In this document: in pieces, positions 3,541 to 43,721 of the stretch
Numbering within the stretch: the first letter of the stretch is position 1
How the letters are laid out: each line of letters begins with the position of its first letter
NCBI GenBank assembly: GCA_038049695.1
Contig: CP142456.1
Location: 44,434,001-44,498,000 of the forward strand
Length of the DNA: 64,000 bases
Direction of reading: 5' to 3'
Origin: Cinnamomum chago
Taxonomy: Eukaryota; Streptophyta; Magnoliopsida; Laurales; Lauraceae
Notes under the pieces: model-generated
What the model was told of the DNA's origin: nothing
Databases searched by the model: none
What the model saw: only the letters and a program-made list of their open reading frames with translations
Program-made: the position numbers and the translations under genes

Positions 3541-3736
3541 TTAAGGAAAGTAGAGCCTACTTGGTGATTTAACTTCATTAATCCAAGCTTTAGCTTTCCT
3601 AATGACCCCCTTCATCCCTTAGTTCATTTCCCTTTGATATGCCTCAAAACCTCTCAAGGAGGGGCTTAAAAATCTCAATTTTTGGCAAAGGAAAGAACTC
3701 ATATTTATAGAAAAAATTCCCAACGGCTAGCCACCC

Positions 3737-10960: not shown

Positions 10961-10965
10961 AGAGT

Positions 10966-16100: not shown

Positions 16101-16249
16101 CCCCACTAGTCACCAAAACACTCGAAATTCCCCAAAACTTATGACTAAAGCTATTCCAAACCCAACTTAGCCAAAATCACTAATCAAGCTTAGGACTAAC
16201 ACACGACTTAATTAACACTAATCGGTTTCACTCGGGTCAGGGTCTTACA
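13135..16249 (-). repeat. Tekay element 3' LTR (gamma family, 3115 bp)
   Basis: Starts TGTCGCGACCCCGG and ends GGTCTTACA in window orientation. Closely similar to the partner LTR at 19609-22708, with scattered substitutions (for example three differences in about 120 bp near 13261-13380), a small duplication of aggccaataa near 13450-13465, and two missing palindrome-cluster segments near 14859 and 15041. Confidence 0.93.
14855..15035. repeat. Palindrome cluster, core GTCGAC (gamma 3' LTR)
   Basis: Contains GGTCGACC near 14860, GGTTGACC near 14885, GGTCGACC near 14913 and 14929, decayed AGTCGACT near 14947 and GGTCGACT near 15025. An extra stem, AGGTTC/GAACCT, lies near 14994-15009. Compared with the partner LTR it lacks a 20-bp unit and a 14-bp unit. 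Confidence 0.83.
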
Positions 16250-16263
16250 TCCTCCACCCCTTA
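16250..16263 (-). other. Tekay polypurine tract
   Basis: On the minus strand TAAGGGGTGGAGGA abuts the 3' LTR start TGTAAGACC. The position is exact for plus-strand priming. Confidence 0.9.
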
Positions 16264-17681: not shown

Positions 17682-18330
17682 CTCTGGATCTTGTAACTGA
17701 CTATCCTTTTCTGAATGAAGGAAGGCTCTGACACTGACATGTTAACTAATAGGACCCCCTTCCTTAGTGGCTGTAGGTCTATGCTCAACTCCTCAAATTG
17801 CTCAAAAATACAAGTGCCACTTAGATTTTCCAAGCCTATTGATTTTCTGCTCAAGGCATCGGCAACTACATTAGCTTTCCCCGGGTGGTACTTGATTGGA
17901 AAATCGTAATCCTTGATATATTCCATCCATATTCTCTGCCTCATGTGCAATTCCTTCTGAGAAAACAAATATTGTAAGCTGCGGTGATCGGAGTGGACTT
18001 TGAACTGGTCTCCATAGAGGTAATGTCTCCACATTTCAACGCGAAAACAACCACTGCTAACTCAAGATCATGGGTGGCATAGTTCTTCTCATGATCTTTC
18101 AACTGTCGAGATCCATAAGCAATCACTTTTCCTTCTTGCATCAACACACAATCAAGTCCCACATTCAAAGCATCGGTAAAAATGGTGAAACCGCCGCTTC
18201 CGGATGGCAAAGTAAGGACTGGTGCTGTAGTCAATCTCTTCTTCAGCTCTTGGTAACTCTCTTCACACTGATCTGTCCATACATATGGTGCATTCTTCCT
18301 TGTCAACTTCGTCAATGGTGACACAATCAA
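17657..18330 (-). pseudogene. Tekay RNase H
   Basis: Minus-strand frames 18330-17941 ([20 protein letters not shown], then [20 protein letters not shown]) and 18034-17657 ([34 protein letters not shown], then ADALSRKS) give a complete gypsy RNase H in two frames. The break lies near 18000-18030. It follows RT directly and leads into integrase, the normal gypsy order. Confidence 0.9.
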
Positions 18331-19299
18331 CGAAAATCTTGCACAAACCTCCGATAATAGCCTGCCAATCCCAGAAAACTTCTAATTTCTGTCACATTCT
18401 TCAGCCTTTCCCAATTCACTACTGCTTCAATCTTGGACGGATCCACTGACAATCCTTCTTTGGAGATGATGTGCCCCAAAAATGCTACTTGGTCTAACCA
18501 AAATTCACACTTGTTGAGCTTCGCATATAGCTGATTCTCTCTCAAGAGTTGCAGTGGTATTCTCAAGTGCTCTTCATGCTCTTCTTTGGTCTTGGAGTAC
18601 AATAAAATGTCATCAATGAATACTACCACAAACTGATCTAGATACTCTGCAAATATCTTGTTCATCAATGCCATGAACACTGCTGGTGCATTTGTCAACC
18701 CAAATGGCATCACTAGGAACTCATAGTGGCCATATCTTGTCCGGAAAGCTATTTTCAACACATCTGATTCTCTAACTCTCAGCTGATGGTAACCGGATCT
18801 CAAATCAGTCTTCAAAAAGTATGAAGCACCCTGCAATTGATCAAACAATTCATCTATCCTTGGCAATGGGACTTTGTTCTTGATGGTCTCTAGATTCAAT
18901 CTTCTATAATCTATACACATTCTCATCGAACCATCCTTCATCTTGACAAACAAGACTGGAGCTCCCCATGGTGAAATACTCGGTCTCACAAAACCTTTGT
19001 CTAACAATTCTTGCAACTGAGTCTTCAATTCTCACAATTCTGCCAGAGCCATTCTATATGGTGCAATAGATATTGGAGTGGTCCCTGGTAACAACTCGAT
19101 AGTGAAATCGATCTCTCTGATGGGTGGTAAGCCTGGATTCTCCTGCGGAAAAACATCTGGGAATTCCCAAACAATTGGGATCTCCTCCACCCCTTGGGAC
19201 CGTTTATCCTCCGTGATAAATGCCAAATAGGCTTCACATCCATTCTCAAAAGTCTATCAGCCTTCAACGCTGAGACAAACCCTAAACAAGGATTCCTCC
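18327..19299 (-). pseudogene. Tekay reverse transcriptase
   Basis: The frame 19028-18327 begins [20 protein letters not shown] and contains the [22 protein letters not shown] and [13 protein letters not shown] blocks, the catalytic FIDD (codons at 18609-18620) and the [10 protein letters not shown] block. It ends with the [13 protein letters not shown] motif that opens the connection to RNase H. The upstream segment (to about 19226) holds the RT N-terminal PGLPPIREIDF-like stretch in a different frame, so a frameshift separates them near 19030. One stretch of 233 codons is uninterrupted, longer than other frames in this element. Confidence 0.92.
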
Positions 19300-19608
19300 T
19301 CTCTCCCTGAAACAACATCCCTGCTGGTGTCTCATCTAACTTGAAAGTAAGGGTCTTATGGAAACAATCCATTGTGGCATGGTACCCTACCAGCAAATCC
19401 ATCCCTAGGATGACATCATAATCATACATCTCGCTTACGAGGTGTCATGATGTTGTAAAACAAGTTGTTAGCACATAATAATCAAATAAAGGGTCACACA
19501 TTGCTCACACAATTCTAGCTAACGAAGCATCTAATAAATCCTCACCACATCCTTAGGATTTCTAGTTTCTTTTAATTGCTTCAAACACGACTCGCTCTGA
19601 TACCAGTC
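19300..19608 (-). pseudogene. Tekay protease C-terminal remnant and leader
   Basis: The minus-strand frame from 19429 opens MYDYDVILGMDLLVGYHA, the second half of a gypsy aspartic protease (the ILGMDWL motif). The catalytic Asp-Thr-Gly lies upstream in intact elements and is absent. Directly upstream of 19429 the sequence reads as untranslated leader up to the PBS. So one deletion took gag and the first half of protease. Confidence 0.85.
19594..19605 (-). other. Tekay primer binding site (initiator Met tRNA)
   Basis: On the minus strand TGGTATCAGAGC lies 3 bp after the 5' LTR. It is the usual complement of the 3' end of plant initiator tRNA-Met, and it fixes the element's orientation. Confidence 0.92.
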
Positions 19609-22600
19609 TGTCGCGACCTCAGACCGGGCCCACGGGACTAATCCGGGATCGGGACACTAATGGTGGTGCGAGGTGTAGTACACATTATTTAATTTCCCAC
19701 AAGTGTCCGCGGTGAGGATATCACAACCAAAAATGAATATTTCTTTTAAGTGCGAAAGCGTGTAGCAAATCAAATAGTCAAACCATCCCTAGTCATAAAG
19801 ACAATGTCACAAGTATAAAATACTACATCAGAATGAGCAATGATCATTAGCATGTTTCCCAAGAGTAAGCTAAAGTTTATACAAAAGATCATTTAATCAC
19901 AGTCCCCCAGAACAGAGGCCAACAAAGGCCAATATAAACAAAGCAATAACCTAAAAGAATCGTTAAATAGTTTCCCAAAATGTTGCGTCTCTCATAGCAT
20001 CCAGATATCTAAATGACATCATCAGCATGCCACTCAACTAAGGGTTGCGGTTCACCGACCGCCTCCTCCGGCTCCTCCTCAAGGTAACCGGCAACGAGAT
20101 CTGAGTACCAAAGAAAATGGGTCAGACACGACGGCCTGACAAGAGGGTGAAAAGACATAACAAATACATTTACCTTTAAAAGCATTTAAACCTGTTAGAA
20201 CAATAATTTTCATAAGAGAAATGAATCATTTATTGAAAACGTGAGTGCAGTATAAAGGATATACGGGTAACCAAGGGAGTCGGGAAACCAGTAAGATGGC
20301 AACCACACGAAGCTAAGTCCTCTATCACTAAAGTGACAAAGCAAGAACTAGGCACTGATCTCAACCACTCAAGGTGAGGAGAAACAGTAGATCCTATTAA
20401 TACATATACATATAATATACATGACCACGGTAGCGAGCCGAACATCGGGAACCACAACAGCAATTTGCGGCATCAGGACAAGACCACGGTAATAACCGGG
20501 TAGTGGGATCCAAACTGCAGCTGGGGGGACAAGAGGGGGATCTCCAAATCAGTGGATCAGACTGACAAGGTTATCCAAGCTTAGTGGTGTCGACTCATAG
20601 GTCAAATAACAAATCGGGACATGCTTAAATAATCAAGTACAAATAAATAAACGGGCGGGGCAAGAATGCACAAAGCATAATTCTCATTCATGTGGTCCAA
20701 TGCACTTCAAGACAAGTAACTGTTACAAGTGTAACTTCAATGCTTTCGGGAAAACAAGTCATGTAATGCAAATCTCGGAAATAAGGAAATGCAATGAACT
20801 ATTACAATTTCGGTTAAAATATCGGTTTCAAGATTTATTTTGGGTGAATAGGGGTCCCGTATGTCGATTGTAATAATGACTTGGTACTCATTGAGTTTGA
20901 AGACATTCCGGGCTCCTTATACACTTTGGGATTTCCAAAACTTTAAATGAGCTTATAGATAGTACTAGACGGTGCGATTAAAAACCAAAACTATAAACAA
21001 ACCAACCCTAAGCACAATGTTAATCGTGAAGCATCGTACAACCTAGTCAGTCACCGAAAGGGATAGGATTCGCGATACCCAAGGAAATTGACTTAGCTAT
21101 AGATATGAGGAAGGTATCGTGTTGTCCCGTAACGTTCAAGATTGAATTTCATTGGATTTCGATGCAACCAAACTAACCGTGAAGAACGTCGGCTCAAGAC
21201 ATCCTCACATATAGTCAAATGAGTCCAAAAAGGGTAGCCAAAGTCCCACCTAAGCCCATCCGAAAACAGGGTAAAAATCCCTTCCAGGAAGGATTTCTCA
21301 GTTGGCCCGGTCGACCTGGTCAAAGCCCGGTCGACCCCGTACACAGCAGCCCTGGTCGACCTGAGATGGTCAGGTCGACCTGGTCCCTATGTGCCCGGTC
21401 GACCGAGCCCATGGCCGGTCGATCGACAATTGTAACTGAAAAAGGGAGAACAGTGTTTTGGTTAGGTTCCAGAGAACCTGACCCTGTGTCGCCGGTCGAC
21501 TGAGCCCCCGTGCGGTCGATTGCGTGAACTGCGGAACAGAACCCAGGTTCTGTTCTGTAGTGAGCTGGGCCTTTTCTCTTATTTTCTCTTTTTAACACTT
21601 ATACAACCAACACAAGACTAGAGATAAAGAAAGCTATAAATCAATGTTTCCAATGCATTATGAGCATTTATTTCAACAATGCAAATCATTAAGAAGCATG
21701 AGTAAATCATTAATATTTCACCAAATCATTTAAAACTCAAAACACCTAATCATCCACTTGCCTTAGGTCCAAGCTAGCAAAACCAAGCCTCTAATCACCT
21801 GTTAAGCTCAATTCCAAGCTACAAGCAAAAACCCCCAAAACAAACCCCTGAAATGGGTCGAACAATGAATGAAGAAGATAGAACTCACAATAATGAAAAT
21901 GGAGCTTCTCAAGGACTAGAAGAACACAAATCTAGAAGATGGAGAAGATTGCTTACTTGGATGACCTTCAAATGGAAAGTTTTAGCTCAAAGAAGATCTT
22001 GAAATGAGGGGTTTCCTTCACAAATGGTATCAATAGGTAGCCTTCAAGATGACGAAGAGAATGGTGAAGTCTATTTTGATGTTGGTGCAAGCTTGGTGGG
22101 AGATTGAGATGGAGAGAGCAAGAAGAAGAAGAGAAAGTTGCCAAAGCAAACCCTAGGTTCTCTTTTGTGCTGGAAAAGGGAAATGGAAGATGGGTTTCGC
22201 CTTATATACGCAATGAGAATGGGTCCCACTACTTAAGAACTCTTTGGGTTGAAATCATGTCTTTTGGGACTTCAAATGAATTCGACGAAGAAGGAAGAAA
22301 TGATCTCCAAAATATCTAGATTCCAAAAAGTATATGTTTCGCGGGTTTCGGGGATATCAAGTCTTGGGTATAGGTTTAGTGTAAAAAGACTGTTCTGCTC
22401 TAAGGCTAGGAAATCGGGTTTCGGGGTCTCAAATGGGAATGGGATCAACATGAAAGTTGTAAGGATCAACAAGATAAATGAAACGGGATAAGAATGCAAT
22501 TCAAAACAATTCCGAAAAATCCTCTAAGCAAATGCAAGTCCAAAAGGGAACCCCCTAAGGGCCCACTAGTCACCAAAACACTCGAAATTCCCCAAAACTA

Positions 22601-22708
22601 AAACAAAAGCTATTCCAAACCCAACTTAGCCAAAATCACTAATCAAGCTTAGGACTAACACACGACTTAATTAACACTAATCAGGTTCACTAGGGTCGAG
22701 GTTTTACA
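19609..22708 (-). repeat. Tekay element 5' LTR (gamma family, 3100 bp)
   Basis: Starts TGTCGCGACCTCAG and ends GTTTTACA in window orientation, followed by the TSD gattg. A TATATAAGG box on the minus strand near 22200 is a plausible promoter. The palindrome cluster (21305-21535) lies several hundred bp downstream of it in LTR sense, so in this family the cluster may be transcribed. Confidence 0.92.
21305..21535. repeat. Palindrome cluster, core GTCGAC (gamma 5' LTR, fuller copy)
   Basis: Contains GGTCGACC near 21309, 21329, 21354, 21374 and 21398, GGTCGATC near 21418, GGTCGACT near 21494 and GGTCGATT near 21513. Flanks are nearly the same as in the 3' LTR, but two segments (about 21309-21328 and 21511-21524) are absent there. 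Confidence 0.85.
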
Positions 22709-26046: not shown

Positions 26047-28908
26047 TGTCGTGACCCCGGACAGGATCCCTGGGCCCGCGACGTGTGATGGTGTGTTCTC
26101 CCCACAGGTTCCCCTCGGTGAGGATTCCCGAAACACGCGAAATCTGACTCACATGAACAAGATTGCGGAAGCGTGTAGTAAATCACATCAAGACGAGCAC
26201 TAATAAATCTTTAAGTGCTATGACAAATAATAACAAGACATAGTATCAAAAGAAAGGAGTTAACATGGCATTCCCATCATAGTTCAAGTTATGAGACTAC
26301 ACAAAAGTAAGTTAAGTTTAGTTACATCCCATAAGAGGCCAACAGAGGCCAATACAGCTCTCAAAATGATAAAAGAACCCAAGGACAAAATGTAGCGAAA
26401 CTCAAGACACCGCCCGACATCTAGATGACATTGTCGGGCTGCCACTCTCGGATTGGGGGTGGCTCAAGAGCCTCCTCCGGACGCTCCTCCTCAAAGGCAA
26501 CGTCTCCTGCACCTGGGCACCAACATACAAGGATCAAACACAACGGTTTGGTAGGTAATCAATTTAGGTACAAGTATAGAACCATGAACATTTTAAGAAA
26601 ATCATAAACACGAATCACTGATTTGAAATACTCAATTGAGTGAGGTACATTTTCGAGAATACATAAAAAAACTGAGTAGTACGGATACATATATTATCAT
26701 GAATAGTTACAATCCACAAAGAGCCCATCCTTTCTCTATCATATATAATGAAAAGAGCAAGCACGCACGACAAGCACGATATACATAATATAATCACGAC
26801 ACGATTCCCACATATACGGGGATTCCGACCGCGGAACCGGACATGCACGATATGCTGCAGACAGTCCACATGTTTAAGGACCCCCAGACAGTGATCAAAT
26901 TGAAAGGGCAGTCCAAGCTCACTGGTGTTCACTTAAATTCATGAATGCACAAAACACGCAAAACACTGTCTAAACGTGTCGAGATAAAAAGGGGAAAGTC
27001 ACTTATCAAAACACGACGAACACGACTAGCAAAAGGCATAATTAATATGCATAACACACTTAAGAAGTGACCCTTTTTTCTTGAAACAAATCTTCAAAAT
27101 GAGCTTGTACTAAAACTTCAAAACGAGTACAGCATGATATTCATTGTATCAAAACCGAGTACGAACACAAAGCCTATCAAGCACATGTAAGGACCTTTGG
27201 TTGATCTTTGTATAAACGAAGCCCAAATGTTGGAATTTAAAATAGAATTGGTGTCCCGGAAGTTCAAGGACATCTCGGGTTTCGAGCGCACAATATCAAG
27301 CTAAAGGTCACTTAACATGTTCTAGTTTTCCTTATTGCAAATACTCTTCAAAACAGGCAATTTGTCAATTTCGGTTAGCTAACGGTCAGATGTCGGCTAG
27401 CCGAACTAGGATCTGGCGGCTAGCCGCTAGCTGACTGATAGGCTGACCGCTAGAACTTAGGTCAGAAACTTAGCTCTCTGGAAAAGGAGTCGAAATGACT
27501 TCGGTTGGCTTACGGTTAGCCGAAATGGAAGCTGGCGGCTAGCCGTAAGCTGACCGTAGGGCTGACCGCTGAACCTTGATTCAAAAGCCAGCTACTGGAA
27601 AAGGAACCGCCAAGTTCGGTCACCTCGCGGTTAGCTGCAATGGGGATTTCGGCTAGCTGCCAGCTGACCGACACTGCACGGGAAGTGTAGTTCAGTTCAG
27701 ATTTTGTCATTTCCTTCTTCCTTTCTTCTTGTTTCTCATTCCACCTGCACTCCCCTGAGCCTCCATGCTCTCCAAGGGATAAAACACGCCTCTTTCACAA
27801 TTCCAACATTCAATCCAAGGAATTCCAACATTCAATCCAAGGAAAACATGATCATGAAGCTTTTAAATAAGTTTATATGCAAAATTTATAGAATAACAAT
27901 GTAATCTAAAATACACATGCGACATTGATCCTATAGAGATTGCTTACCTTTGCCCAAATGCTAAACAATCCTCTCCAAGCACTCTTACTCAAGAGCTAAG
28001 CCAACACTACAAGAATCCCAAGGGAAAACAATTCAAACTCAACAAAAATGAAAACAAAGAACCCATTTTCACAAAAGGGTTTGTAAACATGAAAAATAAG
28101 ATTTTAAGGAACTAAAAAGACTTCATTAAGGAGATGGGTTGGAGTTCTTACCTAGAAAAGGTCAAACAAGAGAGGAGGAAGAAAATGGAGCTCTTGCCCA
28201 ACTTGGAACTTCACGAAATTTGCATCAATGGAAAGCTTAGGATGAGAGGAAGAAGGTGATGGTCTTGGAATCTTCTTTGGAGTGTTCTAGCTTGATCATT
28301 CAAGAGAACAAAGTGGAAGGAAAAGGCTTTCTCTCCTTTGGCTGCTCTAGGGTTAGGGTTTGAGAATGAGGAGAGTGAAGGAGAAAGAGAGTAGTTGACT
28401 TAAAACACTTGCAATGGGGCCCAAATGGCCAAATCTTGTATCAATGAAAACATGATCTTGCGGGCCTCGAATGAACTCGACGAAGAAGGATAAAACGATC
28501 CTAGAAATATCTAGTTTTCCAAAAGTATATTTTTGGCATGGTTTTGAGATCTCGAAAATTGTGTCCAGATTTGTGTATAAAAGACAACTTTACCCTTTTT
28601 GGGCTAGAACTTGGGTTTTTGGGCTTCAAACATGAATGGGCTGAAAATGAGAGTTGTAACACATAGTAAAATCATTCAAATGAAATCAAAATCACAATTA
28701 AAACGGAAACCGATGAGATCCTCTCAAGCTTACACATGCACTCAGGCCTTCCTGAGTGTGTCTGACTAACACTAAACGTTCTCAAAATTCCCAAAGCTAT
28801 GTCCAAGACTAAAACTAATTATTTCTACCCAACGACAACTAAACCCATTTAGGACTAAACACCCACTAATCACACACTAATCGAATCGATCTAGGTCGGG
28901 GTCTAACA
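26047..28908 (-). mobile_element. Solo LTR, delta family (Tekay-like, 2862 bp)
   Basis: Starts TGTCGTGACCCCGG and ends GGTCTAACA, with TSD gatca at 26042-26046 and 28909-28913. The sister copia LTR has the unfilled site at 32206-32210. Its ends and overall plan resemble gamma (the Tekay LTR), but it is a separate family. Homologous to the LTR beginning at 34793 except in the palindrome cluster. Confidence 0.93.
27370..27685. repeat. Palindrome cluster, core GCTAGC (delta LTR)
   Basis: Perfect palindromes TCGGCTAGCCGA (27393-27404), GCGGCTAGCCGC (27416-27427) and CGGCTAGCCG (27536-27545), with decayed GGTTAGCT and CGGCTAGCT copies near 27373, 27513, 27630 and 27650. The spacer agctctctggaa (27472-27483) and the ctactggaa near 27592 also occur in the CTCGAG cluster at 46184-46462. 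No GTCGAC or CTCGAG unit is present here. Confidence 0.87.
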
Positions 28909-29688
28909 GATCAATTGGACCTGTCCACCAAATTAGATCCATATCTTATTATCCTTGAGCCCCAATTAATTATAGTAATCATTTGGTACCGATCCAATTA
29001 ACTCTTAATCGGAATGGGTGCGCACTTACCAATGATAAATCCATTAATTGGCACAAGGGGATATTAAAGATAGATTCCATCTTGACCATTGAATGTTCCC
29101 ACAACTCTACTACCACATACCCAAATCACTGAGGTGTTGACCTACAATTGGCCTCACTCATTGGTGATTCGAAGCAAATGAACAGATAGAAACTTGAGTT
29201 CATTAATGTCTTAAGATTATGAGCCTATTGCTAGGAAATTATGAGAGCAGACCTTAAAATAAAGATAGTGTATATAAGGTGCTTCTCATGGTCCTTCAAT
29301 ACATCCAATGTACCAGCACCATGATCCAGAATCTTACGTTCCGATGATCGAGACAAATCACACTATCTCATAGTGATCAAAGTGCTGCAACCTTGTCAGA
29401 TGAGATGTCCAATCTCATCACCGGTTGTGAAGATATTTAAGTATAAGATTTGCAATACATATCTCCTGTATGTGAATCTCATCCATACACATGTATTACA
29501 TCTAGTATACTTGTGGACTCCGGTTCATCTCATGAACCATTATGTCATTTGTATTGGTTATGTGCAAGTATATAATTAAACACCATTCATCTCATGAAAG
29601 GAAAGCATGATTGTATTGATAAATAAAGAAATGAATCAATTTATTACATCATATACTTGGTATTGAGACCATCAAAACTAACGCCACC

Positions 29689-31217
29689 TTCAAACCTTCC
29701 AACAGAAGATCTTGCTCAAAAGATAGAATTGGGGACACTTGATAACCCACGTCCTGTATTCATAAGTAAGAATATAAAGGATGATGAGTTACCCGAGTAT
29801 ATCTCTTTTCTTCATGAGTTCGTTGATTGTTTTACATGGTCTTATGCTGAAATGCCTGGAAGACTAGGGTCCAGGCATTTCAAAATAGCAGTCCACAAAC
29901 TCAATTTGCAAAAAGATATCAAGCCTGTCAAACAAGGCTAAAGAAGATTCCGTCCTGATGTGATGGACAAAATTGAACAAGAAGTTCAGAAACTCAAAAG
30001 CGTTGACTTCATTCGCGAGGAACAACATCCTGAATGGTTAGCCAACATCGTCCCCGTGATAAAGAAAAATGGGCAGATTAGGGTCTGTATTGACTATAGA
30101 GATCTAAATAATGTGTGCCCTAAAGATGAATTCTCGTTCCTCATACCAGAGGTGATGATTGACAACACCTGTGGGTTTGAATGAATGCCATTCATGGATG
30201 GCTTCTCTGACTACAATTAGATAAACATGCATCCTGAAGATGAAAAGCATACATCATTTTGGACCCCGTTTGGCGTGTATTACTTCACTGTCATGCCATT
30301 TGGTCTGAAAAATGCTAGTGCAACATATCAGAGGGCTATGATGAAGATATTCCAAGATATACAGCACAAGATGGTCAAATGTTATGTTGATGACCTTGCC
30401 GTCAAAAGCCGAAGAAAATAAGACAATCTCAAAGATCTTCGAGAAGTCTTCCTCCGACTTCGCAAACACAAACTGCGAATGAATGCACTAAAATGCTTCG
30501 TCGGTGTCTCATCGGGTAAGTTTCTCGGATTCATAGTTCGAAAAATCCGGAATAGAACTTGACCCCACCAAAGTCAAGGCTATCCTAGAAATGCCATCTC
30601 CAAGGACCCTAAGAGAACTAAAAGGGCTTCAAGGAAGATTGGCGTACATCCGATGGTTCATCTCCAATCTGTCAGGGAAGTGCCATCCATTTTCTTGCTT
30701 GATGAAGAAAGGTGTGGACCTTGTTTGGGATGCTGAATGTGAAGCTGCATTTCAAGACATCAAAACATACCTGACCAAACCTCTAGTGTTGGCTGCCCCC
30801 ACAACTGGAAAACCATTCATCTTGTACACAAGTGCTCTTGATTATTCTTTGGGCACTCTAGTCGCACAAGAAAATGATGAAAGAAAAAAAGCTGCTCTAC
30901 ATTACCTTAGTCGCATGTTAGTAGGTGCAGAGCATCGCTACTCTCCAGTCGAAAAAAATGCCTTGTAGTGATGTTTGTCATACAAAAGCCACGTCACTAC
31001 CTACTGTCCAAGACAGTCTACCTGATGTCGAGGATCAATCTCTTAAAGGTCCTTGTCACAAAAGCAGGTTTATTCAATGCTTGACTACCAAAATGGTCCA
31101 TCCTTCTATCGCAATTCGATATTAGGTATGTATCATAAAAAGCAATCACAGATCAAGCTCTAGAAGACTTTCTCGCAGAGCATCCATTGCTTAAATATTC
31201 TCCACTAAAGGATGATC
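29689..31217 (+). pseudogene. Tat-B reverse transcriptase and start of RNase H
   Basis: RT: QKIELGTLDNPRPVFISKNI (from about 29717), KSVDFIREEQHPEWLANIVP, IRVCIDYRDLNNVCPKDEF, the FWTPFGVYYFTVMPFGLKN block, and the catalytic YVDD (codons at 30383-30394). RNase H begins after 30590 (TLRELKGLQGRLAYIRWFIS, VWDAECEAAFQDIKTYLTKP). Stops at about 29940 (CAA to TAA against Tat-A), 30183 and 30219 (CAG to TAG) and a frameshift near 30955 kill the copy. It ends at the TSD tgatc at 31213-31217. Confidence 0.9.
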
Positions 31218-32981
31218 TGTTGGAAAATAGGTGGGCCTTTCAGATAAGTTTCAAAAACTTTTGACCCACTTGATGCAGGGATCAATAATCTAGAAGGCAA
31301 CAATACCCAATCCAGGATGCAATCCCTCAAACTCATAAATCATGTACAACAATATATATTATCTAAAAGATAGAAAACAGCACATAAACATGCAACCACG
31401 AAATCTACAGTATACAAGGATGTAGATATACCTTTGGAGCTTTATAGTGCTCTAATGGAGAATTTGAGTTCTTTCCTTTGATGATGAACACCTTCAATAT
31501 CCAATTCTGAATCTCCAACACCTTTTGATCTTCCATGCTATTACCCGTATTAGATCTCTTTTCTCAAGAAGATGGTGGAATCTCCAAGAGAAAACCTAAC
31601 TTGTAACTCTAAGGAACTAAAGGTGAAAGAGAGGAGAATTTAGAGAGGAAGAGAACTTGTGCAACACTTGCACAAGGGGCTGAAGTTGCTCACACTATTA
31701 TGCACGACCAAGAGGGATTTATTCCTCTTCATATAGCCCTCCAATCCACCTCTTTTCCGATTTGAAATAGAAGTTTAACTCCCATTACAAAATAGTAAAC
31801 TTCTCCCTTGCTAGTTGCCATAAAAGTCTCACTTCCACAACAATTAGTAGCTTTCTCCTTTCTAATTAAAATAGAAGTCCTACTTCCATTAATAATTAGT
31901 ATCTTACCATTACCACTATTAGAAGTCTCACTTCAAATAGAAATAGTAACCTTCCTTTTAGAGTTCAAGTAGAATTAGTATCTTTCTAATAACTTGGACT
32001 AGCGTGGGGACCACTAGGGATTCCTTAGAAAGCTGGCTCCAACTGGGACACACGACCCCACATCTCATGTGCAATCCGGGCACACAGTTAATTACAAATA
32101 ACTTCACTATATAAATACAATTGCACTCCAGTCTTAGGAATATATTATAATGAAGACACTAAAATTCCTCAGTACCACAAGTAGGCCCCTCCATCTATAT
32201 CCATGGATCAAATGGACCTGTCCACCAAATTAGATCCATATCTTATTATCCTTGAGCCCCAATTAATTATAGTGATCATTTGGTACCGATCCAATTAACT
32301 CTTAATTGGAATGGGTACGCACTTACCAATGATAAATCCATTAATTGGCACAAGGGGATATTAAAGATAGATTCCATCTTGACCATTGAATATTCCCACA
32401 GCTCTACTACCACGTACCCAAATCACCGAGGTGTTGACCTACAATTGGCCTCACTCATTGGTGACTTAAAGCAAATGCATAGATAGAAACTTGAGTTCAT
32501 TAATGTGTAAGGATTATGAGCCTATTGCTAGGGAATTATGAGAGCATACCTTAAAGTAAAGACAATGTATATAAGGTGCTTCTCATGGTCCTTCAATACC
32601 TCCAATGTACCAGCACCATGATCCAGAATCTTACATTCCGATGATCGAGACAAATCACACTATCTCATAGTGATCAAAGTGCTGCAACCTTGTCAGATGA
32701 GATGCCCAATCTCATCAATGGTTGTGAAAATATTTAAGTATAAGATTTGCAATATATGTCTCCTGTATGTGGATCTCATCCATACACATGTATTACATCT
32801 AGTATACTTGTGGACTCCGGTTCATCTCATGAACCATTATGTCATTCGTATTGGTTATGTGCAAGTATATAATTAAACACCATTCATCTCATGAAAGGAA
32901 AGCATGATTGTATTGATAACTAAAGAAATGAATCAATTTATTACATCATATACCCTTGGTATTGAGACCATAAAACTAACA
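31218..32981 (-). mobile_element. Solo copia-type LTR (1764 bp)
   Basis: Starts TGTTGGAAAATAGG and ends AAACTAACA, with TSD tgatc at 31213-31217 and 32982-32986. The unfilled site is at 61757-61761 in Tat-A. Same length and orientation as the LTR at 25053-29683 after removal of its insert. It preserves the site that received the delta LTR in its sister. Confidence 0.94.
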
Positions 32982-32986
32982 TGATC

Positions 32987-34792
32987 TCCCAGACGAACCT
33001 GTCTACATTGTGGAGATTTCCTCATCAATTGTTTCATTGGATATGTACTTCGACGACTCAACCAGGATAAATGAAAAAGGAAAGCAGATATCAGGAATTG
33101 ACATTCTCTTTGTTAGTCCAAAAAAATACATGATTCCACACGCTTTCTCGATCTGGAACCATGTTCAAATAATGCAGTAGAATACCAAGAACTGATTATA
33201 GGATTGGAACTCACCCACGAATCCGGCATCACCCTGCTGGAAGCTTTTGGGGACTCTCAATTGATCGTCAACCAGGTGAATCAAAAATTTGAAGTTAGGA
33301 AGCCCGATTTGTTGCCATACTACAATAAGGTGCAATCGCTTTCGAAAAAAGTTTGACATCTGTCACATCAGCCACATCCTCAGAGGTGAAAACATTTATG
33401 CAGATGCCCTGGCTGGACTTGCAGCGTCTATGGCAATCCAAGAAGGGGAAAACATGCAAATTACAATGTGTCAAAGAAGGATTCTCCCTCCTCTTAACAC
33501 ACACCAAGCAGTTGCTAAATACCACCAAATGGTTGGAAGTTGGATATCCATCCTCAAACCTCTGATCGGTGATTGGAGGGATCCGTTCATTGATTACACT
33601 ATGTTCGGAATCCTACCTGAAGATCCAAAAGAATGGGTAAGCATTCAAAGTCGAGCCCCAAACTTTTGTTTGGATATTCCTTTAAAAATCCTTTATAGAA
33701 AATCATTCGACGAAGTACTTTTGTGCTGCTTGTCGCAACAAAAGGCGGAGGAAACACTCAAAGAAGTTCATGCTGGTCTTTGTGGAGCCCATCAGGCCGG
33801 TCCTAAGCTCTACGATCAGATAAAAATTTTAAGTTATTATTGGCCTACCATGGTAGTTGACGCTATGCAATTTACTAAGCGCTGCCGACAATGCCAAGTT
33901 CATGGAGATTATGTCCACATGACTCCAGAATGGCTACATCCTCCAGCGATCTCATGGCCTTTTGAAGCCTGGGGTATGGACATCATGGTCATATCTCTCC
34001 CCCATCAAGCAAAGGTCATCGCTTCATCTTCGCCGCTACAGATTATTTCTCCAAGTGGTCAGAAGCATTTGCGCTTAGTAAAATGAAGACCTCATCAGTC
34101 CTTCAGTTTTTGCTCACCAACAGTATTTGTCGCTTTCGCATACCTAAAAGATTCGTCCATGATAACGGACCACAATTCCGGGATCATAGATTCTATAGGT
34201 TCTGTGACAAGTACAAAATCCAAAGTTGTCCTTCGACTCCATATAATCCGGCAGTGAATGGACTAGCAGAAGCCTTCAACAAGACACTCTGCAAAATTCT
34301 GAAGAAAATGTTCTCTAGTCACAAAAGAGACTGGGGCAACAAACTACCAAAAGCTTTATGGGCCTATCGAACCACTGTCTGAGGACCAAACCATAGGACA
34401 CCATTCTCATTGGTCTATGGATGCAAAGTTGTTGTCCCTTTGGAAGTACAAATTCCTTAAGGGTATTTTTGCAAAATGACATGATGCAAGAAAGAAATGT
34501 CAAATTGAGACTCCGAGAGCTGGATAATCTCGATGAGAGACGGCTCGAAGCTCTACAAAACATTGATCTTTACCAAGCACGCATGGTAAGATCTTTCGAC
34601 AAGAAGGTCAGGCAACGCGCCTACAAAAAGGGAGACACGGTTCTTGCAATAAAAAGGCCAATGGTTTTCTCCCACAAATTCGAAGGGAAGTTCGAACCAA
34701 AATGGGAGGGACCCTTCATCATCAACAAAGTCTTCTCCAACGGCGCATGCGCTTTTCTAAACATGGAGGGCGACAGATTTATTGTTAGACCC
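32987..34792 (+). pseudogene. Tat-B archaeal-type RNase H and integrase
   Basis: From about 33030 to 33440 comes the second RNase H typical of Tat elements (YFDDSTRINEKG, then FDICHISHILRGENIYADAL). Integrase follows from about 33640: HHCC zinc finger (VHAGLCGAHQAGPKL to KRCRQCQ), first catalytic Asp in WGMDIM (near 33976), the DNGPQFRDH block with the second Asp (near 34161), and the Glu in GLAEAFNKTL (near 34270). The C-terminal KGDTVLAIKRPM and FEPKWEGPFIINKV reach 34792. Frameshifts near 33345 and 34080 and a stop at 34381 break it. The delta LTR cuts it near its end. Confidence 0.9.
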
Positions 34793-37021
34793 CGACCCAG
34801 ACTAACTCAACTAGTCTGTGATTAGTGTGTGTTTAGTCTTAAATGGGTTTAGTTACCGTTGGGTTAGAAATAATTAGTTTTAGTCCTGGACATAGCTTTG
34901 GGAATTTTGAGAATGTTTAGTGTTAGTCAAACACGCTCAGGGAGGCCTGAGTGTACGTGTACGTGCAAGCGTGGAAGGATCGTGTTGGTTTTCATTTTTA
35001 ATTATGATTTTGATTTCACTTGAAGGGTTTTATTATTCGTTACAACTTTCATTTTCGCCCCGTCCATGTTTGAAGCCCAAAACCCAAGTTTTGACCCAAA
35101 AGGGGTAAAATTGTCTTTTATACCCAAATCTAGACACAAACTTCGAAATCTCAAAACCATGTCAAAATCATACTTTTTGGAAACTACAATTTTCGAGGAT
35201 CATTTTATCCTTCTTCGTTGAGTTCGTTCGAGGCTTGTAAGGTCATGTTTTCATCGATGCAAGAATTAGACTTATTGGGCCCCATTTGTGAAGTACTTAA
35301 GTCACTTCCCTTTCCCCCTCTTTTCATTCTCAATCCCTAACCCTAGAGAACCAAGCTCTAAGGGAAAACCCTTTTTTCCTTTTCACTTTCTTCCTCTTGA
35401 ATGCACAAGCTAGAGATCTCCAAATAGAATTCCAAGACCACCATCTTCTTCATCTCATCCCAAGCTTCCTATTGATGTCTTTTTCTTGAAAGTTATAGCT
35501 GAGCAAGCTCCCCATTGTCTTCATTCCTTTTCTTTGGGTATCTCTAGGTAAGAGCTTCAACCCATCTCTTCAATGGAATCTTTTTAGTTCCTAAAGATCT
35601 TATTTTGCAAATATGCAAACTCTTTTGTGAAAATGGGTTCTTTGTTTTCATTTTTGTTGAGTTTTGAATGGATTTTCATGGGGTTTTTGTAGTGTTTGGC
35701 TTAGCTCTTGAGTGGGAGTGCTTGAAGAGGATTGTTTAGCATTTGGGCAAAGGCAAGTAATCTCTATACGTTCAATGTTGCATGTGTATTTTTGGATTTC
35801 ATTGTTATTCTTGAAATTTTGATATAAATTTGTTTATAAACCCTATTATCATGTTTTCCTTGGATTGAATGATTGAAATTGTGAAAATGAACCCTTGGTG
35901 AGCATGGAGGCTCTAGGGATTGTTTGTGGTTTAAGGATGGGAAGAAAGGAAGAAATGCTTTAGAAATTGTGCAAGAGAAGAGCTATTTTTGCACTCAACG
36001 AGTACAAGCAAAAGCCTGTTCGCTCGAGCGACCCTTGGATCCGCTCGAGCGACCAGGCCACTGCCTGGTCTGGGCGCAAGCAGAAGCCTGTTCGGTCGAG
36101 TGACCATTGGGTCCGCTCGAGCAAACTATCCACTGTCTGGCCTAGAGCAAGACAGAGAGTTGTCTGCCAGAGCGACATTGTGGTCCGTTCGAGTGAACCG
36201 TCTTGCTCGAGCGAAGTGTCAATTCCGTTCGAACGAACCTGTCAGATTCAGGAAGGAGGATTGTTTCCATTTGTGTATTTGCTTGAGAGTTGAAAACTAG
36301 TCTATGTTAAGGTTTTTGGCTTGACATCGTGTAAATGGAACTTCAAAATGTAAACCGAACTTCGGGCACACCAATTCATGTTTATTTTCTGACATTTGGA
36401 GCTCCAATTATTCAAAGGTCAATTAATAGCCTTAACACATGCTTGATGAATTTCGTGTTTGAACTTCAATTTTGGTGCGATAGGTACCATCATGTATTCA
36501 TTTTGAATTTCAAGTGTAAGCTAGCTCGTTTGAAGATTTGTTTCAAGAATCAAAATGGGGATCACTTCTTAAGCATGTTATGCAAATAATTATGCCTTTT
36601 GCTAGTTGTGCCTTGTCTTGTTTTGATAAGTGATTCTTCCCCCTTTTTATCTCGACGTGTTTAGACTGTGTTTCGCGTGTTTTATGCATTCATGAATTCA
36701 AGTGAACACCACTGAGCTTGGATTGCCCCTTCAGTCTGATCCACTGTCCGAGGGTCCTTAAACTTGTAGACTATCTGCAGATTGGTCGTGTATTTTATTA
36801 CACATCGTGCATGTTCGGTTCCGCGGCCGGAATCCCCGTTTATGTGTGAATTGTGTCTTGTTTATATTATGTATATCGTGCTTGTTGTGCGTGCTTACTC
36901 TTGTCATCAATGTATGATAGAGAAAGGATGGGCTCAATGTCGATTGTAACCATTCATGATATTATAAGTACTCATGTTAGTTTGTTTTAGTATCTTAGCT
37001 TGTTGCATTTTAATTTTATTC
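34793..37021 (+). mobile_element. Delta-family LTR, left part
   Basis: Starts TGTTAGACCCCGACC at 34793, in sense orientation. Homologous in reverse to 26047-28908 through about 36990. The last roughly 0.65 kb of the LTR, up to the expected GTCACGACA end, is missing, because Tat-A begins at 37027. The 5 bp at 34788-34792 (tttat) is the candidate left TSD; the right copy should lie off the window. Divergence in the last 60-70 bp makes the exact junction less certain. Confidence 0.82.
36008..36235. repeat. Palindrome cluster, core CTCGAG (delta LTR)
   Basis: CGCTCGAGCG at 36021-36030 and 36042-36051, with variants CGGTCGAGTG, CGCTCGAGCA, CGTTCGAGTG, GCTCGAGCG and CGTTCGAACG up to about 36235. 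It occupies the same place in the LTR as the GCTAGC cluster at 27370-27685, with homologous flanks on both sides. Confidence 0.87.
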
Positions 37022-38103: not shown

Positions 38104-39972
38104 TGTTAGGAATTTTGTAGATTACAATTTGATGGATGCATTATCATTCAAGCATCATTTGATTTACACACATATGCATTGATTTATAAAGACTTGAAAT
38201 CTTGATTTATACATGCATAGGTTTTTAGACTTGAAGAAATATTGATTTATGCATGATTTGTTTTTAATCTTGGATGTAATTAGTTTTGAAAAGGAGTTTT
38301 AGAAATTCAAGCAAGCCATTGGTTTTATAATTTCGAATCTTTTTTGGCTTTTTATGTTTCATGTTTTAAAACCCTTAGTTTGATTTAAAACATGTTTCCA
38401 AGCTTGGTTTAGTGGCCCAAAGGTTCCCAAGAAAAATACTTTGGAAATATGCAAGAAAAATGCATTTTTGGGAATTTTGGTCCCAGGCCTGTCCTGCAGT
38501 GTAAACTAAAGGCCAGGTCGACCGGGTAAAGAGCCTGTTTTTTTCAAACGGTCATTTTTATGACCGTTGGAGGCCAGGTCGACCGGGGAAGAGCCAGGTC
38601 GACCGGGGGACTAGCCGTTGGGCTGTTTTTGGCCATAAATACTAGTTCTTTCCTTTGTCAAAAGTTAGCAATTTTAAGGCCCTCCTTGAGAGGTTTTGAA
38701 GCCAATGAAAGGGGAATGAACTAAGGGATGAAGGGGACCATTAGGAAAGCTAAACCTTGGATTAATGAAGTTAAATCACCAAGTAAGCTCTACTTTCCTT
38801 AATCATATGTTTTCATGCTTTGCTTAATTATTGGTAAATCTTTTGTAGCATGATAAACTATGATTTGTTGTGTCCTTAACATGTTTTATGTTTTGAATTG
38901 ATCTATTGTTTTGGATGCATCACCATTTGATTCAATCCAAGTAGTACTTTATTTGGTAAATCTAAGTAGATCATGTTAATGAAAGAATCTTTGAAATCAT
39001 ATGTAACATGATTCATATACTTGGTTGAATCTTTGGTTGTTGTTTTTCATCATAAGAAAATCTCTTTCAAATCTATCTTATGTTTTGGATTCAACAACTT
39101 TACAACTCATATGTAACTTTGTTTTAAAGTTTCACAACTTGCTTTGCTTTGATAGGTATATCATTTTCAAGTTGTTTTTATAATTACATATGATTTGTCC
39201 CCTTATTTCAATCAAATCTATTTTTATGTTTTATGAGCCACATTGTTGATTTGATTGACATCCCTATGCTTCACATGTTTTGTTCTTAGATTTTCACAAC
39301 TTGTTTAGGATACAAATGTATATCTTGTACAAGTTATTTTTAACATGTGACTTGCATTCTTTCCTCAATCATAAATGTTTTTATGAGCTAAAACTTTCAA
39401 AAGCCTTAGGCATACATTTATGAGCTTTCAGTTTAAAAATGATTGAGGACATCATACATACACATTGAGCATTCATCTTTGCATTCATAGTGTATGTGTA
39501 TGAATTAGTTTTTCACTTCTACATCCGCCTAATTAAGAGGCATTGTAATGAGCTTAATTGAATCTCCATCAAGTGTATTTTAGACACTAATTAGAGAGAT
39601 AACCAACCTTGTGGTTGAAGAGGTTATTGCTTAGCCTAAGAAAAGCATAGTGTAATAGGTTGATGTTGATCCTTGAAAAACATTATTGTAAAGGTTATTG
39701 CTTAGCCTATTGAAAAGCATAAATAGTGAAAATCCGGTGGGGTGTTGGATCACAAGCCGGTAATGGATGTAGGCATTGAGGCCGAACCACTATAAATCCT
39801 TGTGTGATGGTGCTTGCTTTGTGGTGCTTGTTTTTATTAAGCTTCCGCATTTTATTTGTAATCATCACTTGTAACTAGTTTAAGTTAAAGAAGTTAAAAT
39901 TGATTAAAATTGGTCATAATTGAAGCTCACCCTATTCACCCCCCCTCTAGGGTTCGGATCCCCGGACTTTCA
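38104..39972 (+). mobile_element. Solo LTR, alpha family (1869 bp)
   Basis: Starts TGTTAGGAATTTTG and ends CCGGACTTTCA, with TSD gtgat at 38099-38103 and 39973-39977. It has a single copy of the 305-bp segment that is doubled in the two CACTA-resident LTRs. A TATAAATCC box near 39789 and a short C tract near 39941 lie close to its right end. Confidence 0.94.
38510..38615. repeat. Palindrome cluster, core GTCGAC (alpha LTR, short)
   Basis: GGTCGACC at 38516-38523, 38577-38584 and 38597-38604, each preceded by cca and followed by ggg. The hairpin AACGGTCAT-tttt-ATGACCGTT lies between them at 38547-38568. A cataaatac TATA-like box follows near 38634. Confidence 0.87.
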
Positions 39973-40522
39973 GTGATTTCCTGATAATCTGGTTTTTGAT
40001 GCTCGAAAATGACTGATCTTCATCAACATCACGAATCCGCCGTTAAAAGCATGGAATCATCATTGATCGCTCCAAAATGCCAACCGGCTGACCAAGAAAG
40101 TACAATTTTTGTCCGACCGATCGAGAAATCGATAAGACAGATGGTACCGGCCCGCTGTTAGCTATCTATGAGTGAAGTTGCATGATCATCCGACATTGAT
40201 CAATATGAAGATCCATCCTCGATCATCGCAAGAAGAATTCGAAAAGTGTTAGATCTACATAGTTTGCAATTTGATGGTTAACATATGAATGCATTTTCAT
40301 CACATCACCTTATCTCTCTATTGCATTTTGATTTCTTGAAAATCATGTTTGAAATTTAACCTTATCTCGTTTTATTCAAAATTCCTTTGGTTGATTTCAT
40401 TTTATGTCAAAATGTTATTTTATTTGACTTAGGAATCATTTTATTCTATGTTAATTTTTGCTCCATTTTTTTTTCTAGTAAAAAACTTCAGTTTCTCTGA
40501 CTGCTCTTGCTGTCAGTCAGCT

Positions 40523-40855
40523 TGTCGGTCGAGTGTCGGTCGACCGACATGTGAACCGAGCTGAGCCGAGCCTTTGTCAGTTCCATTTCCAGCAAACAAT
40601 TTTTCTGTCAGTCAAGCTGTCGGTCGAGTGTCAGTCGACCAAAGTAGTCTCTGAACTTGACCGAGCTTCGTGTCGGTTCCTTTCCCAGAGAGCGTGTTTT
40701 TCAGTCCTTTTTCTCTGTCGGTCAGGTGTCGGTTCCATGTCGATCGACCGAATGAGACTCGGTGAACCGACAAGAGAAAAGTTTCTAAAATTTATGACCG
40801 TTGTAAATTTGACCGTTGACCGAACCCTGTCTGTCAGTCAACCGACAAGAGATCC
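40523..40855. repeat. Palindrome cluster, core GTCGAC (beta 5' LTR)
   Basis: The 16-bp perfect palindrome TGTCGGTCGACCGACA lies at 40534-40549, next to a half-decayed TCGGTCGAGTG unit. Further copies: TCAGTCGACCA near 40630, TCGATCGACCGA near 40740, and a decayed cluster end near 40840. Single TCGGT and ACCGA half sites fill the gaps. A TATA-like ccttatttaataag follows at about 40870. Confidence 0.84.
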
Positions 40856-41574
40856 GTTGGACACTGTTTTCCTTATTTAATAAGAATTCTCCCTGGTTTG
40901 CATGAGAGTCTTAGAGAGTCTCCTTGGAGACCAATCTTGGGAGTTTTCTAGTGAACATTTTTCAAACCCAAGATCAAGTATTACACAAAGGAGCAAGGGA
41001 AACAATTTGAAGAGACAAAGCTTGATTACAAAAGTTAAACATCCTTGTAAGCTTTGCTCCTCATTTGTTACATGCTAATATTGTTAGGGATTTTGTATTT
41101 GCAATTTGATGGATGCATTTTCACTTTAGCATCATTTGAATTTTCACACATGCATTGTTTTAGAAAATCTTGAAATCTGGTTTTATACATGCATTGGATT
41201 TTAGACTTGTAGAATTAATGATTTATGCATGTTCTGTTTTTAAACTTGGATGCATTTGTTTTAGAATCCAAACTCTTTTGAAAACCTAATTCTTTGTGCA
41301 TTACTTTTGAGAAATCAAATTGAGGATTTAGGTTTGTGCCTTGCATACATTCATCATTTTCAGAATCATTTTTGTATGCATTTAAATGTGAAAAGAGTTT
41401 TATCAAATCAAGCAAGCCATTGGTTTTAAAGTTTCGAATCAATTTAGGCTTTTTGTGTTTCATGTTTTTTAAACATCTTAAGTTGATTTAAAACATGTTT
41501 AAGCTTGGTTTAGTGGCCCAAAAATCCCCACAAAGAAATACTTTGAAAATATGCATTTATGGGAATTTTGGTCC

Positions 41575-41715
41575 CAGGGGGTCGACCAGCAGTGTGGGCC
41601 GGTCGACCGGCCACATTGCAGGCCGATTGGGTTCCTGAAGCACCAACGGTCATTTTTCTGACCGTTGTGTGTACCCGGTCGACCGAGCCCTGTCATGGGG
41701 TCGACCGGAGACTAG
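41575..41715. repeat. Palindrome cluster, core GTCGAC (alpha LTR)
   Basis: GGTCGACC units near 41580, 41601 (inside GGCCGGTCGACCGGCC), 41687 and 41700, with the perfect hairpin CAACGGTCA/TGACCGTTG at 41644-41667. It reads as the mirror of the cluster at 3737-3861, with the same cores, spacing and hairpin. Confidence 0.87.
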
Positions 41716-42374
41716 CCGTTGGACTGTTTTTTGGTTTAAAGTCCATTCTTTTCCCATCTTTCAAAAGGCTTGTTGGATGAACTTTTGAGACCTTTTTGGA
41801 GCCTAAGAAAGGGGAATGAAGTGTTAAAGCTAGAAGGCTTTTTGGAAATCAAATGCTTGAGTTTTAAAACGGTATATCTTACTTGTCATTTTGATTTCCA
41901 TTCAAATTAGAATCTATGCATGTTTAAATCTTTGTATTTTCTTTTATGCATGATTTCTAGTTTTTAAAGAGTTGTTTTGCAAACTCATTATCATCTTTGG
42001 AATATTAAGAATGGTTTGCAAACTCTCTTGTCTAATTCACATGTGTTCTTAGACTTTAATATTCATACAACTTGTTTTAGTTCATTTCTTTAAGTTGTTT
42101 GAATCTTTCATGTGATTAGCATTTATCTTCAGTCATCATTTTCTAAGCTTTGATTTTAAAATACATCAAGCATTCATTTAGGAACTTCATTGTAGAAATT
42201 GATTGAAGTAAAGCATTCATACACTTGTGCACACACTTCAGCTTCTTTAGTGTATGTTTGTAATTTGTTTTAAACTTTCATATTAGCCTATTTAAGAGGC
42301 AATTTCAATTGTGCTTAAATTGTATCTCTTAGAGTGATCTTTTGTGAAGACACCTTCTTTGAGAAATCTTTATT

Positions 42375-42515
42375 TGTAAAGGTTATTGCTTAGCCTAAGA
42401 AAAGCATTGTGTATAGGTTATTGCTTAGCCTTGAAAAGCATCTTGTAAAGGTTGTTGTTGAGCCTAGAAAAACAACATTGTAAAGGTTATTGCTTAGCCT
42501 AGTAAAAAGCATAAA
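42375..42515 (+). repeat. Array of about 35-bp repeats (ggttattgcttagcc) in alpha/beta LTRs
   Basis: Four units of the form aaaggttattgcttagcc followed by ttgaaaagcat and a short linker. The same array occurs, with different unit numbers, at 2285-2425 and 9005-9145 (reverse), 39617-39722, 43375-43490 and 51825-51965. Each unit holds the inverted words TGCTT and AAGCA. Confidence 0.82.
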
Positions 42516-43721
42516 TAGTGGAAATCCGGTGGGGTGATTGGATCACAAGCCGGTAGTGGACGTAGGCATTGAGGCCGAACCACTATAAACCTTTGTGTTG
42601 TGGTGCTTGCTTTTGTGGTGATTGTTTATATTAGCTTCCGCATATTGTTTGATTAATCATCACTTGTGACTAGTTTATGTTAAGAAATTAAAATTGGTCT
42701 AAATTGGTCATATTTGTAGCACACCCTATTCACCCCCCCCCCCTCTAGGGTTCGGATCCCCGGACTTTCAAATATATCTTATTGGAAAATTTCTTGTAGC
42801 ATGCTAACTTTGATGAGTTGAATCCTCTACATTATCTTTGATTTATTCTTTATAGGATTCATCAATTAGTCTCATACCAAGTCATTGCCTTCTTATTTAA
42901 ATCATGCTTACTTCAACTTTCTTGTTTTCATTAGATGCATGATTAATCTACTTGGTTGAGTCTTTAACTAGTTGTTTTCACTCTATGATCTCATAGTAAA
43001 TATTTAAATTATGAAAACAACTTTGTTCCTTCATTACATGTTCCGTATGTACAACTTGCATTCCTTGATTATTGCAATCTTTAGAAGTTGTCTTTTTGAA
43101 AAAGAACATGTAATTTGCAATAAAACTTCAATCTAATTATTTCTGTTCTTCAAACTTTGAAATGCTTTGAGCACATATCATTTGAGCCTCACTTTCAACC
43201 TTGATTGAAGTTTACACAAATACATCATGTGCATTCATCTTTGCATTACATAGAGTGTTGTGTGAGTTTACTTTAGACTTTCATATCAGCCTATTTAAGA
43301 GGCATTGTATTTGAGCTTATATTGTATCTCTTAGAGTGTTTGTAAAGACATTTTCTTTGAGAAATTTTCACTTGTAAAGGTTATTGCTGGGCCTTAGAAA
43401 AGCATAGTGTATAGGTTATTTCTAAGCCTAAGAAAATCATATTGTAAAGGTTATTGCTTAGCCTATTGAAAAACATAGATAGTGGAAATCCGGTGGGGTG
43501 TGATCACAAGCTGGTAGTGGATGTAGGCATTGAGGCCGAACCACTATAAATCATTGTGCGATGGTGCTTGCTTTGTGGTGATCGCTTTTAGCTTCCGCAT
43601 TTATTTTGATTATCATCACTAGTGACTAGTTAAGCCTTAAGAAATTTAAAATTGGTCACTATATTGAAGCTCATCCTATTCACCCACCCCCCCTCTAGGG
43701 TTCGGATCCCGGACTTACAAT

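Follow-up and report, generated by a model that had tools for sequence, protein, structure and literature searches.

Palindrome arrays in two related long terminal repeats

The stretch of Cinnamomum chago DNA analyzed here (the window; 64,000 nucleotides, positions 44,434,001 to 44,498,000 of contig CP142456.1, assembly GCA_038049695.1) is plant nuclear DNA packed with nested long terminal repeat (LTR) retrotransposons, among whose LTRs are copies that contain a cluster of short palindromes, referred to below as an array. The analysis centers on two LTR copies of one family, B and B', whose arrays are built on different palindromic hexamers, or cores (Table 1). Pairwise alignment showed that the homology of B and B' ends at position ~1236 of the B LTR and resumes at ~1596, and that the gap is the palindrome cluster. 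The non-homologous segment measures 300-360 bp, and the flanks on either side of it are 81.5% (27821-28908 vs 35880-34783) and 78.7% (26686-27265 vs 36970-36357) identical, while the final ~640 bp of B gave no alignment with B'. B has perfect palindromes of at least 10 bp at 27374, 27393, 27416 and 27536; those of B' are at 36020, 36042 and 36226. The B cluster has five exact copies of GCTAGC and none of CTCGAG, and the B' cluster has four of CTCGAG and none of GCTAGC. Comparison of the two arrays with the palindromes masked revealed no detectable similarity (z -1.4). These results confirmed the claim of a preliminary description of this DNA that homologous LTR flanks, here ~80% identical, surround palindrome clusters with different cores.

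Ten clusters were catalogued in the window, comprising B, B' and at least eight further ones, each with one predominant core: GTCGAC in A1, A2, C1, C2, D1, D2 and D3, CTCGAG in A' and B', and GCTAGC in B. Exact cores were unmixed across the ten save for a single GCTAGC in D2; in C1, the count of GTCGAC (2) equals that of AAATTT. An additional D copy (38517-38598) lies outside this catalogue. One palindromic hexamer occurs four to six times per cluster in each of the seven clusters tried, B and B' included, and in every one of them its copy number was matched by 0 of 1000 dinucleotide shuffles. The A, B, C and D arrays show a CGG-CCG signature, and those of A' and B' have CGC-GCG instead.

Insertion of a foldback or miniature element could have brought the array into the LTRs, as the abrupt edges of homology and the inverted repeats inside the array might suggest. 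Such an origin is very improbable in our judgment, because the array occupies the same slot in both B and B', although no search was aimed at target-site duplications or terminal inverted repeats bordering the array or at an empty slot.

Table 1. Window coordinates of the palindrome arrays and of the LTRs and elements that carry them
Feature	Position	Strand	Remarks
B array	27370-27690	minus	core CGGCTAGCCG; partial tandem units of ~117-119 bp; spacer word TCCTTTTCCAGAGAGC
B' array	36005-36240	plus	core CGCTCGAGCG; tandem unit of 72 bp
A1 array	14840-15080	minus	core GTCGAC
A2 array	21300-21560	minus	core GTCGAC
A' array	46160-46480	minus	core CTCGAG
C1 array	~40500-40860	plus	core GTCGAC
C2 array	~50670-51000	plus	core GTCGAC
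D1 array	10440-10600	minus	core GTCGAC; TATA-like stretch just downstream (by eye)
D2 array	3720-3850	minus	core GTCGAC, plus one GCTAGC
D3 array	41560-41720	plus	core GTCGAC
LTR copy B	26047-28908	minus	solo; TG..CA ends; target-site duplication GATCA
LTR copy B'	34784-37021	plus	3' part without alignment to B
LTR A1	13135-16249	minus	3' LTR of element A (Ty3/gypsy chromovirus, by sequence)
LTR A2	19609-22708	minus	5' LTR of element A; primer-binding-site-like TGGTATCAGAGC at 19605 down to 19594
Element A pol pieces	16261-19031	minus	reverse transcriptase, integrase zinc-binding domain, SH3_Tf2-1, sub-threshold chromodomain
LTR A'	44682-47778	minus	solo; target-site duplication ATGGG; inserted in gag-like region of element C
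LTR C1, first part	40247-41081	plus	Sirevirus-like
LTR C2, first part	50414-51226	plus	Sirevirus-like; preceded by several GGGGGA-type polypurine tracts
LTR D1	8746-10962	minus	
LTR D2	2026-4238	minus	
LTR D3	41081-42770	plus	
Perfect palindrome, 20 bp, GAGTTCGGTCGACCGAACTC	48233-48252	plus	upstream of the Transposase_32-matching open reading frame of element C

Core type is constant within each subfamily sampled

To assess core type in other copies, we surveyed the host genome (1.06 Gb) using the part of the LTR upstream of the array as the query, which made the survey blind to the core. The B query led to 6969 candidates, of which 40 were scored; 30 loci were taken and 28 were kept, the window's B among them, after exclusion of L072 and L085, which have no downstream flank. 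All 28 B-type copies contain GCTAGC, with 2-5 exact copies each, and GTCGAC and CTCGAG are absent from them. From the 5869 candidates for B', we scored 40 and read 16 stretches of ~650-680 bases, which are ranks 2-16 and 20 of 43 match rows, the first row being the window's B'. CTCGAG was present in all 16 of these B'-type stretches, with 1-8 exact copies each (one in L090; two each in L093, L097 and L105), and GTCGAC in none; two of the 16 have a single GCTAGC of unplaced position, perhaps in the flank (cf. 36520 in the window). This sample extends to flanks of ~83-89% identity, and the deeper region between the B and B' subfamilies lies outside it. A separate query that contained the B array, and was hence biased, kept 38 of 40 loci, which overlap the flank-only set and were not pooled with it; GCTAGC occurred at least once in 37 of the 38, with no exact copy in L029, and L031 has one CTCGAG.

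Core type is, then, a constant subfamily character in the copies sampled, and B and B' differ through a single subfamily-level event or a small number of them. The preliminary description had proposed repeated core switching between conserved flanks, and had named cores that track the tree of copies as the outcome speaking against it. Within subfamilies the core tracks the tree; since it is the same in 28 of 28 and in 16 of 16 copies, repeated switching is unsupported and replacement at the subfamily level is supported.

The same constancy bears on the idea that host small RNAs derive from hairpins of the arrays, or target the arrays, and that array diversity reflects escape from silencing. 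In maize, the palindrome-rich LTR regions of Sireviruses are variable small-RNA hotspots (PMC5311732, PMC10760457; here and below, published work is compared in the portions of each source that were available), and the arrays in the window are CpG-rich, though another window of the LTR is sometimes richer. Nevertheless, the core is stable over the 28 and 16 copies, with no copy-by-copy shift, and we consider this explanation improbable.

By the 525 bp before the array, B-family LTRs (L021-L057) fall into two groups, with a best local match to B of 83-91% or 72-77%, and the downstream flank is mostly at 85-93%. These may be mosaic LTRs.

Arrays appear to be inherited as blocks that change in size

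On a quick flank-only tree of the 28 B-type copies, with size classes set by length (18 short arrays and 10 longer by about one unit of 117-119 bp), array size class required six changes, four of them forced by well-supported branches, and 27 of 500 label shuffles were equally low in size changes. Among 16 two-unit arrays, in which the anchoring of units is rough and which differ from the length classes of the tree, units at the same position agreed across copies at 0.81-0.82, and units within one array agreed at 0.73. The arrays therefore look inherited as blocks. Ongoing homogenization inside the arrays was considered as a candidate process and finds no support in these values. The preliminary description had held that something replaces or homogenizes the whole set of units; replaceable blocks between conserved flanks are borne out, and homogenization as a continuing process is not.

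In the 18 short arrays, the dyad columns, set on one reference copy, were less variable than other array columns despite their CpG sites (0.898 against 0.833, p 0.026 by permutation; the upstream flank scored 0.863), and the 10-mer CGGCTAGCCG was found at four of the five reference dyads in 10-12 of the 18 copies. The arrays of two D copies (2026-4238 and 8746-10962) are 71% identical and have rearranged modules, and the rest of these LTRs is 93% identical. Indels that separate copies of the same family were not significantly concentrated in the arrays (2/11, 2/4 and 3/18 events).

The B array resembles the array of a Sirevirus-like element

We compared the 28 B-type arrays with the other arrays of the window. 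Unmasked and on the same strand, all 28 exceeded the maximum of 150 shuffles against both C1 and C2 (for C2, mean score 68 and shuffle maximum 40); in the opposite orientation, 4 and 6 arrays did so. With the palindromes masked, 23 of 28 scored above all 200 shuffles against C1, and just as many did so against C2, as compared to 0 of 28 on the opposite strand. When the B cluster was compared with 636 tiles of the window, its five best matches were C tiles. The B-C similarity is collinear over ~285 bp in the best copy and strand-specific, and the words TCCTTTTCCAGAGAGC and CGGTTCCTTTTCCAG are common to B and C2. The remaining arrays, D1 aside, gave few scores above shuffles: none of the 28 against B', masked or unmasked; none unmasked and two masked against A'; two against D3 on the opposite strand, masked; and one against A1 on the opposite strand, unmasked. 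B'-type arrays, in turn, clearly resemble A' only with the palindromes included (scores 64-132). The A-D similarity consists mostly of palindromes (masked z -0.8 and -0.7 with D3; 4.4 for A1-D1).

These scores suggest that B and C share spacer ancestry, or else have converged strongly, despite their unlike cores. With unlike cores and a modest identity between B and C, element C cannot have been the donor. A relative of C probably supplied the array; alternatively, a change of core followed the transfer.

Convergence is also central to an explanation without any exchange, in which each lineage built up its array in place through tandem amplification, and spacer words such as TTCCAGAGAGC recur because sites for the same host factors converged. 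Both arrays indeed contain tandem units (in B, 27394-27556 matches 27513-27670; in B', the period is 72 bp), array size changes frequently, and CGGTCGACCG is listed for a Vitis Sirevirus too (PMC2829016). Furthermore, some block-shuffled versions attain the B-C score: with blocks of 16 and 24 bp, 1/300 and 2/300 for C2, and 6/300 and 32/300 for C1. Convergence of short sites, however, does not predict a collinear, strand-specific similarity of the length observed between B and C, and the arrays of B and B' have no detectable similarity between flanks that are ~80% identical. We regard this explanation as rather unlikely, yet deserving of serious weight.

The elements that carry the arrays

Element A spans 13135-22708 and has LTRs of 3.1 kb. 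Its reverse transcriptase (RT) lies upstream of the integrase and SH3_Tf2-1, with a chromodomain under the Pfam cut-off, and the best solved matches of the RT were RT/RNase H 4ol8 (gypsy-type) and, second, Ty3 Gag-Pol. Among the matches of an RT search that bear an organism name, nearly all are from eudicot plants, which does not prove the origin of the DNA. For the B family, the integrase end of a single element elsewhere in the genome (L076) was read, and it has integrase H2C2 and SH3_Tf2-1 right before the 3' LTR. On the basis of the RT-integrase order, SH3_Tf2-1, the RT matches and the L076 integrase end, the A and B family are assigned by sequence to the Ty3/gypsy chromoviruses. The TGGTATCAGAGC that follows the 5' LTR of element A is, we assume, the complement of initiator-Met tRNA; with the long LTRs, this primer-binding site (PBS) is presumably consistent with the Del/Tekay lineage, an affiliation that we infer for both the A and the B family.

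Element C has multiple GGGGGA-type polypurine tracts upstream of its 3' LTR and a gag-like frame with a zinc-knuckle-like stretch (both by eye); the frame has two relatives only, neither of them named. One of its open reading frames (ORFs) gave a weak, sub-threshold Transposase_32 match, and no RT or integrase match was found in the three ORFs of at least 150 aa between 43720 and 50414, the shorter broken pieces being unsearched. The insertion of A' (44677-47783) lies within the zinc-knuckle-like stretch.

Inspection by eye revealed no clear TATA-like box in B or B'. A splice-donor-like AGGTAAG was seen by eye in the presumed leader of B (28142-28156, minus strand) and of B' (35543-35555, plus strand), and the B/B' array could be intronic if this site is used.

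Palindrome spacing and tests of an RNA role

Adjacent palindromes are 19-24 bp apart in 13 of 28 pairs from six clusters, as compared to a random mean of 2.8; this range was spotted before testing, and the test of the best 6-bp window, which allows for that, was equaled in 0 of 10,000 trials. Related and hence non-independent copies gave similar values: 22-23 bp accounts for 37 of 137 adjacent spacings in the 38 B-type loci, and 21-22 bp for 27 of 84 in the 16 B'-type stretches, flank dyads included. A distance of ~21 bp corresponds to two turns of B-DNA and favors proteins that sit along the same side of the DNA; a stem between neighboring palindromes is likewise compatible with the spacing taken alone.

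A function in RNA was weighed as well: if transcribed as part of a leader, the palindromes might form hairpins or kissing loops that aid genome dimerization. Each of five clusters folds more stably than every one of its 100-200 shuffles, with z from -3.6 to -7.4, the lowest-energy window lies inside the array in the six LTRs scanned, and the array appears to be downstream of a TATA-like box in A (~650 bp, by eye) and A'. On the other hand, any palindrome folds, the window of lowest z-score in C2 is outside the array, and in D1 and D2 a TATA-like stretch follows closely on the array (by eye), which probably leaves the array outside the transcript. The pairs that break symmetry within dyads, read on the sense strand, are 10 G-T and 13 A-C (small counts from related copies), and those between paired dyads are 8 G-T vs 6 A-C. 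With no bias toward G-U among the broken pairs, there is no pointer to kissing-loop RNA, and the selection for RNA dimerization raised in the preliminary description found no support. We give an RNA role only a small chance.

Exchange of regulatory arrays as the preferred explanation

We propose that the clusters are cis-regulatory: each would be an array of palindromic sites, carried in the LTR, to which proteins bind, akin to the repeated motifs described in Sireviruses. Each palindrome would be occupied by a dimeric DNA-binding protein. Neighboring dimers would line up along the same side of the DNA, and which protein binds would depend on the core. The ancestor of one subfamily (B or B') would have lost its whole array and received that of another LTR family instead, through recombination or template switching, and the new array would then have been inherited as a block, gaining and losing units. 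The B array and that of a Sirevirus-like element would descend from a common ancestor, and B' would have its core, and to a weak degree its spacers, in common with the A' lineage. That an exchangeable cis-regulatory array, made of predicted protein-binding sites, was replaced between the subfamilies is to us an even call. More tentatively, and with doubt prevailing, we suggest that two superfamilies share a pool of exchangeable arrays, that a chromovirus subfamily acquired a Sirevirus-type array whole and its type was then fixed, and that a two-turn grammar is read by dimeric host proteins. If true, co-resident retrotransposons would trade regulatory switches without genes, and unrelated families could answer the same signals. 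Core type would serve as a simple marker for array exchange in any plant genome, and the recurring spacing would predict what binds.

Several observations weigh against the preferred explanation. B and C have different cores and a modest identity; 13 of the 28 B-type arrays exceeded shuffles against D1 when unmasked, a number that fell to 0 once the palindromes were masked; and the masked B'-A' similarity (6/16 on the same strand, 4/16 on the opposite) is weak and not strand-specific. Element C appears Sirevirus-like, and its putative Ty1/copia status rests on the polypurine tracts and the layout. The array of A and A' is apparently 600-900 bp downstream of the TATA-like box (by eye), the fifth of the reference dyads is not conserved, the spacing is weakly significant when counted by cluster (6/6, p 0.034; five-cluster subsets, p 0.046 and 0.092), and C1, with two dyads 204 bp apart, does not have the 19-24 bp spacing.

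Relation to known systems

Palindrome clusters with a CGG-CCG signature were described as CpG-rich repeated motifs of Sirevirus LTRs, found also upstream of env, by Bousios et al. 2010 (PMC2829016), with intervening bases that vary by element (CGGTCGACCG in Vitis, AATCCGGCTWRCCGGATT in Citrus). The motif was absent from the other Ty1/copia elements compared there and was called Sirevirus-specific among them. The C and D arrays fit this description, and the 20-bp palindrome of element C resembles the habit of extra motifs before env. In other respects the arrays of the window depart from it: the published carriers are Ty1/copia elements, whereas the A and B family appear to be Ty3/gypsy chromoviruses; the B' and A' core CGCTCGAGCG is without CGG-CCG; and the published motifs are a short distance upstream of the promoter, unlike the apparently downstream array of A and A'.

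Del LTRs were reported by Cruz et al. 2014 to have plastic 5' CpG islands, with none in the eudicot group (PMC4029996). As here, these are long chromovirus LTRs in which a CpG-rich segment variable in sequence and length lies between better conserved parts; the string "palindrom" occurs 0 times in the main text of that paper, and core types and cross-family affinity are not in the material compared. Tnt1 and Retrolyc1 show modular evolution of U3, with subfamilies that differ in the regulatory part of the LTR and have the rest in common (PMC1838419), but they belong to one copia superfamily, and the material compared has no cross-family palindrome arrays. Exchange of regulatory sequences is known between partner pararetroviruses (PMC5491270), and Onsen undergoes intra-family LTR recombination (PMC5668417). 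In these cases exchange involves partner viruses or one family, whereas the affinity described here crosses superfamilies if C is a copia element. An earlier case across element classes is that of maize Helitrons, which carry the same palindrome as Sireviruses (PMC10760457). No report of arrays in chromovirus LTRs or of array affinity across superfamilies came up in our searches of an open-access library, from which most subscription papers are missing. Altogether, arrays are known in kind, and their occurrence in chromovirus LTRs, their subfamily-constant type and a kinship that crosses LTR kinship are new evidence.

Searches outside the host genome

A protein scan of IMG/VR returned seven candidate stretches and no relative, and a PBS-junction pattern found 11 loci in IMG/VR, none with a BLAST match to the window. 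A scan of GTDB gave eight loci, none with an array, and the locus nearest to element A stops short of the array position. Finally, BMWJ01000031.1, filed as Streptomyces clavifer (L001 1-3816), is 82% identical to element A over 3.7 kb and is probably plant contamination.

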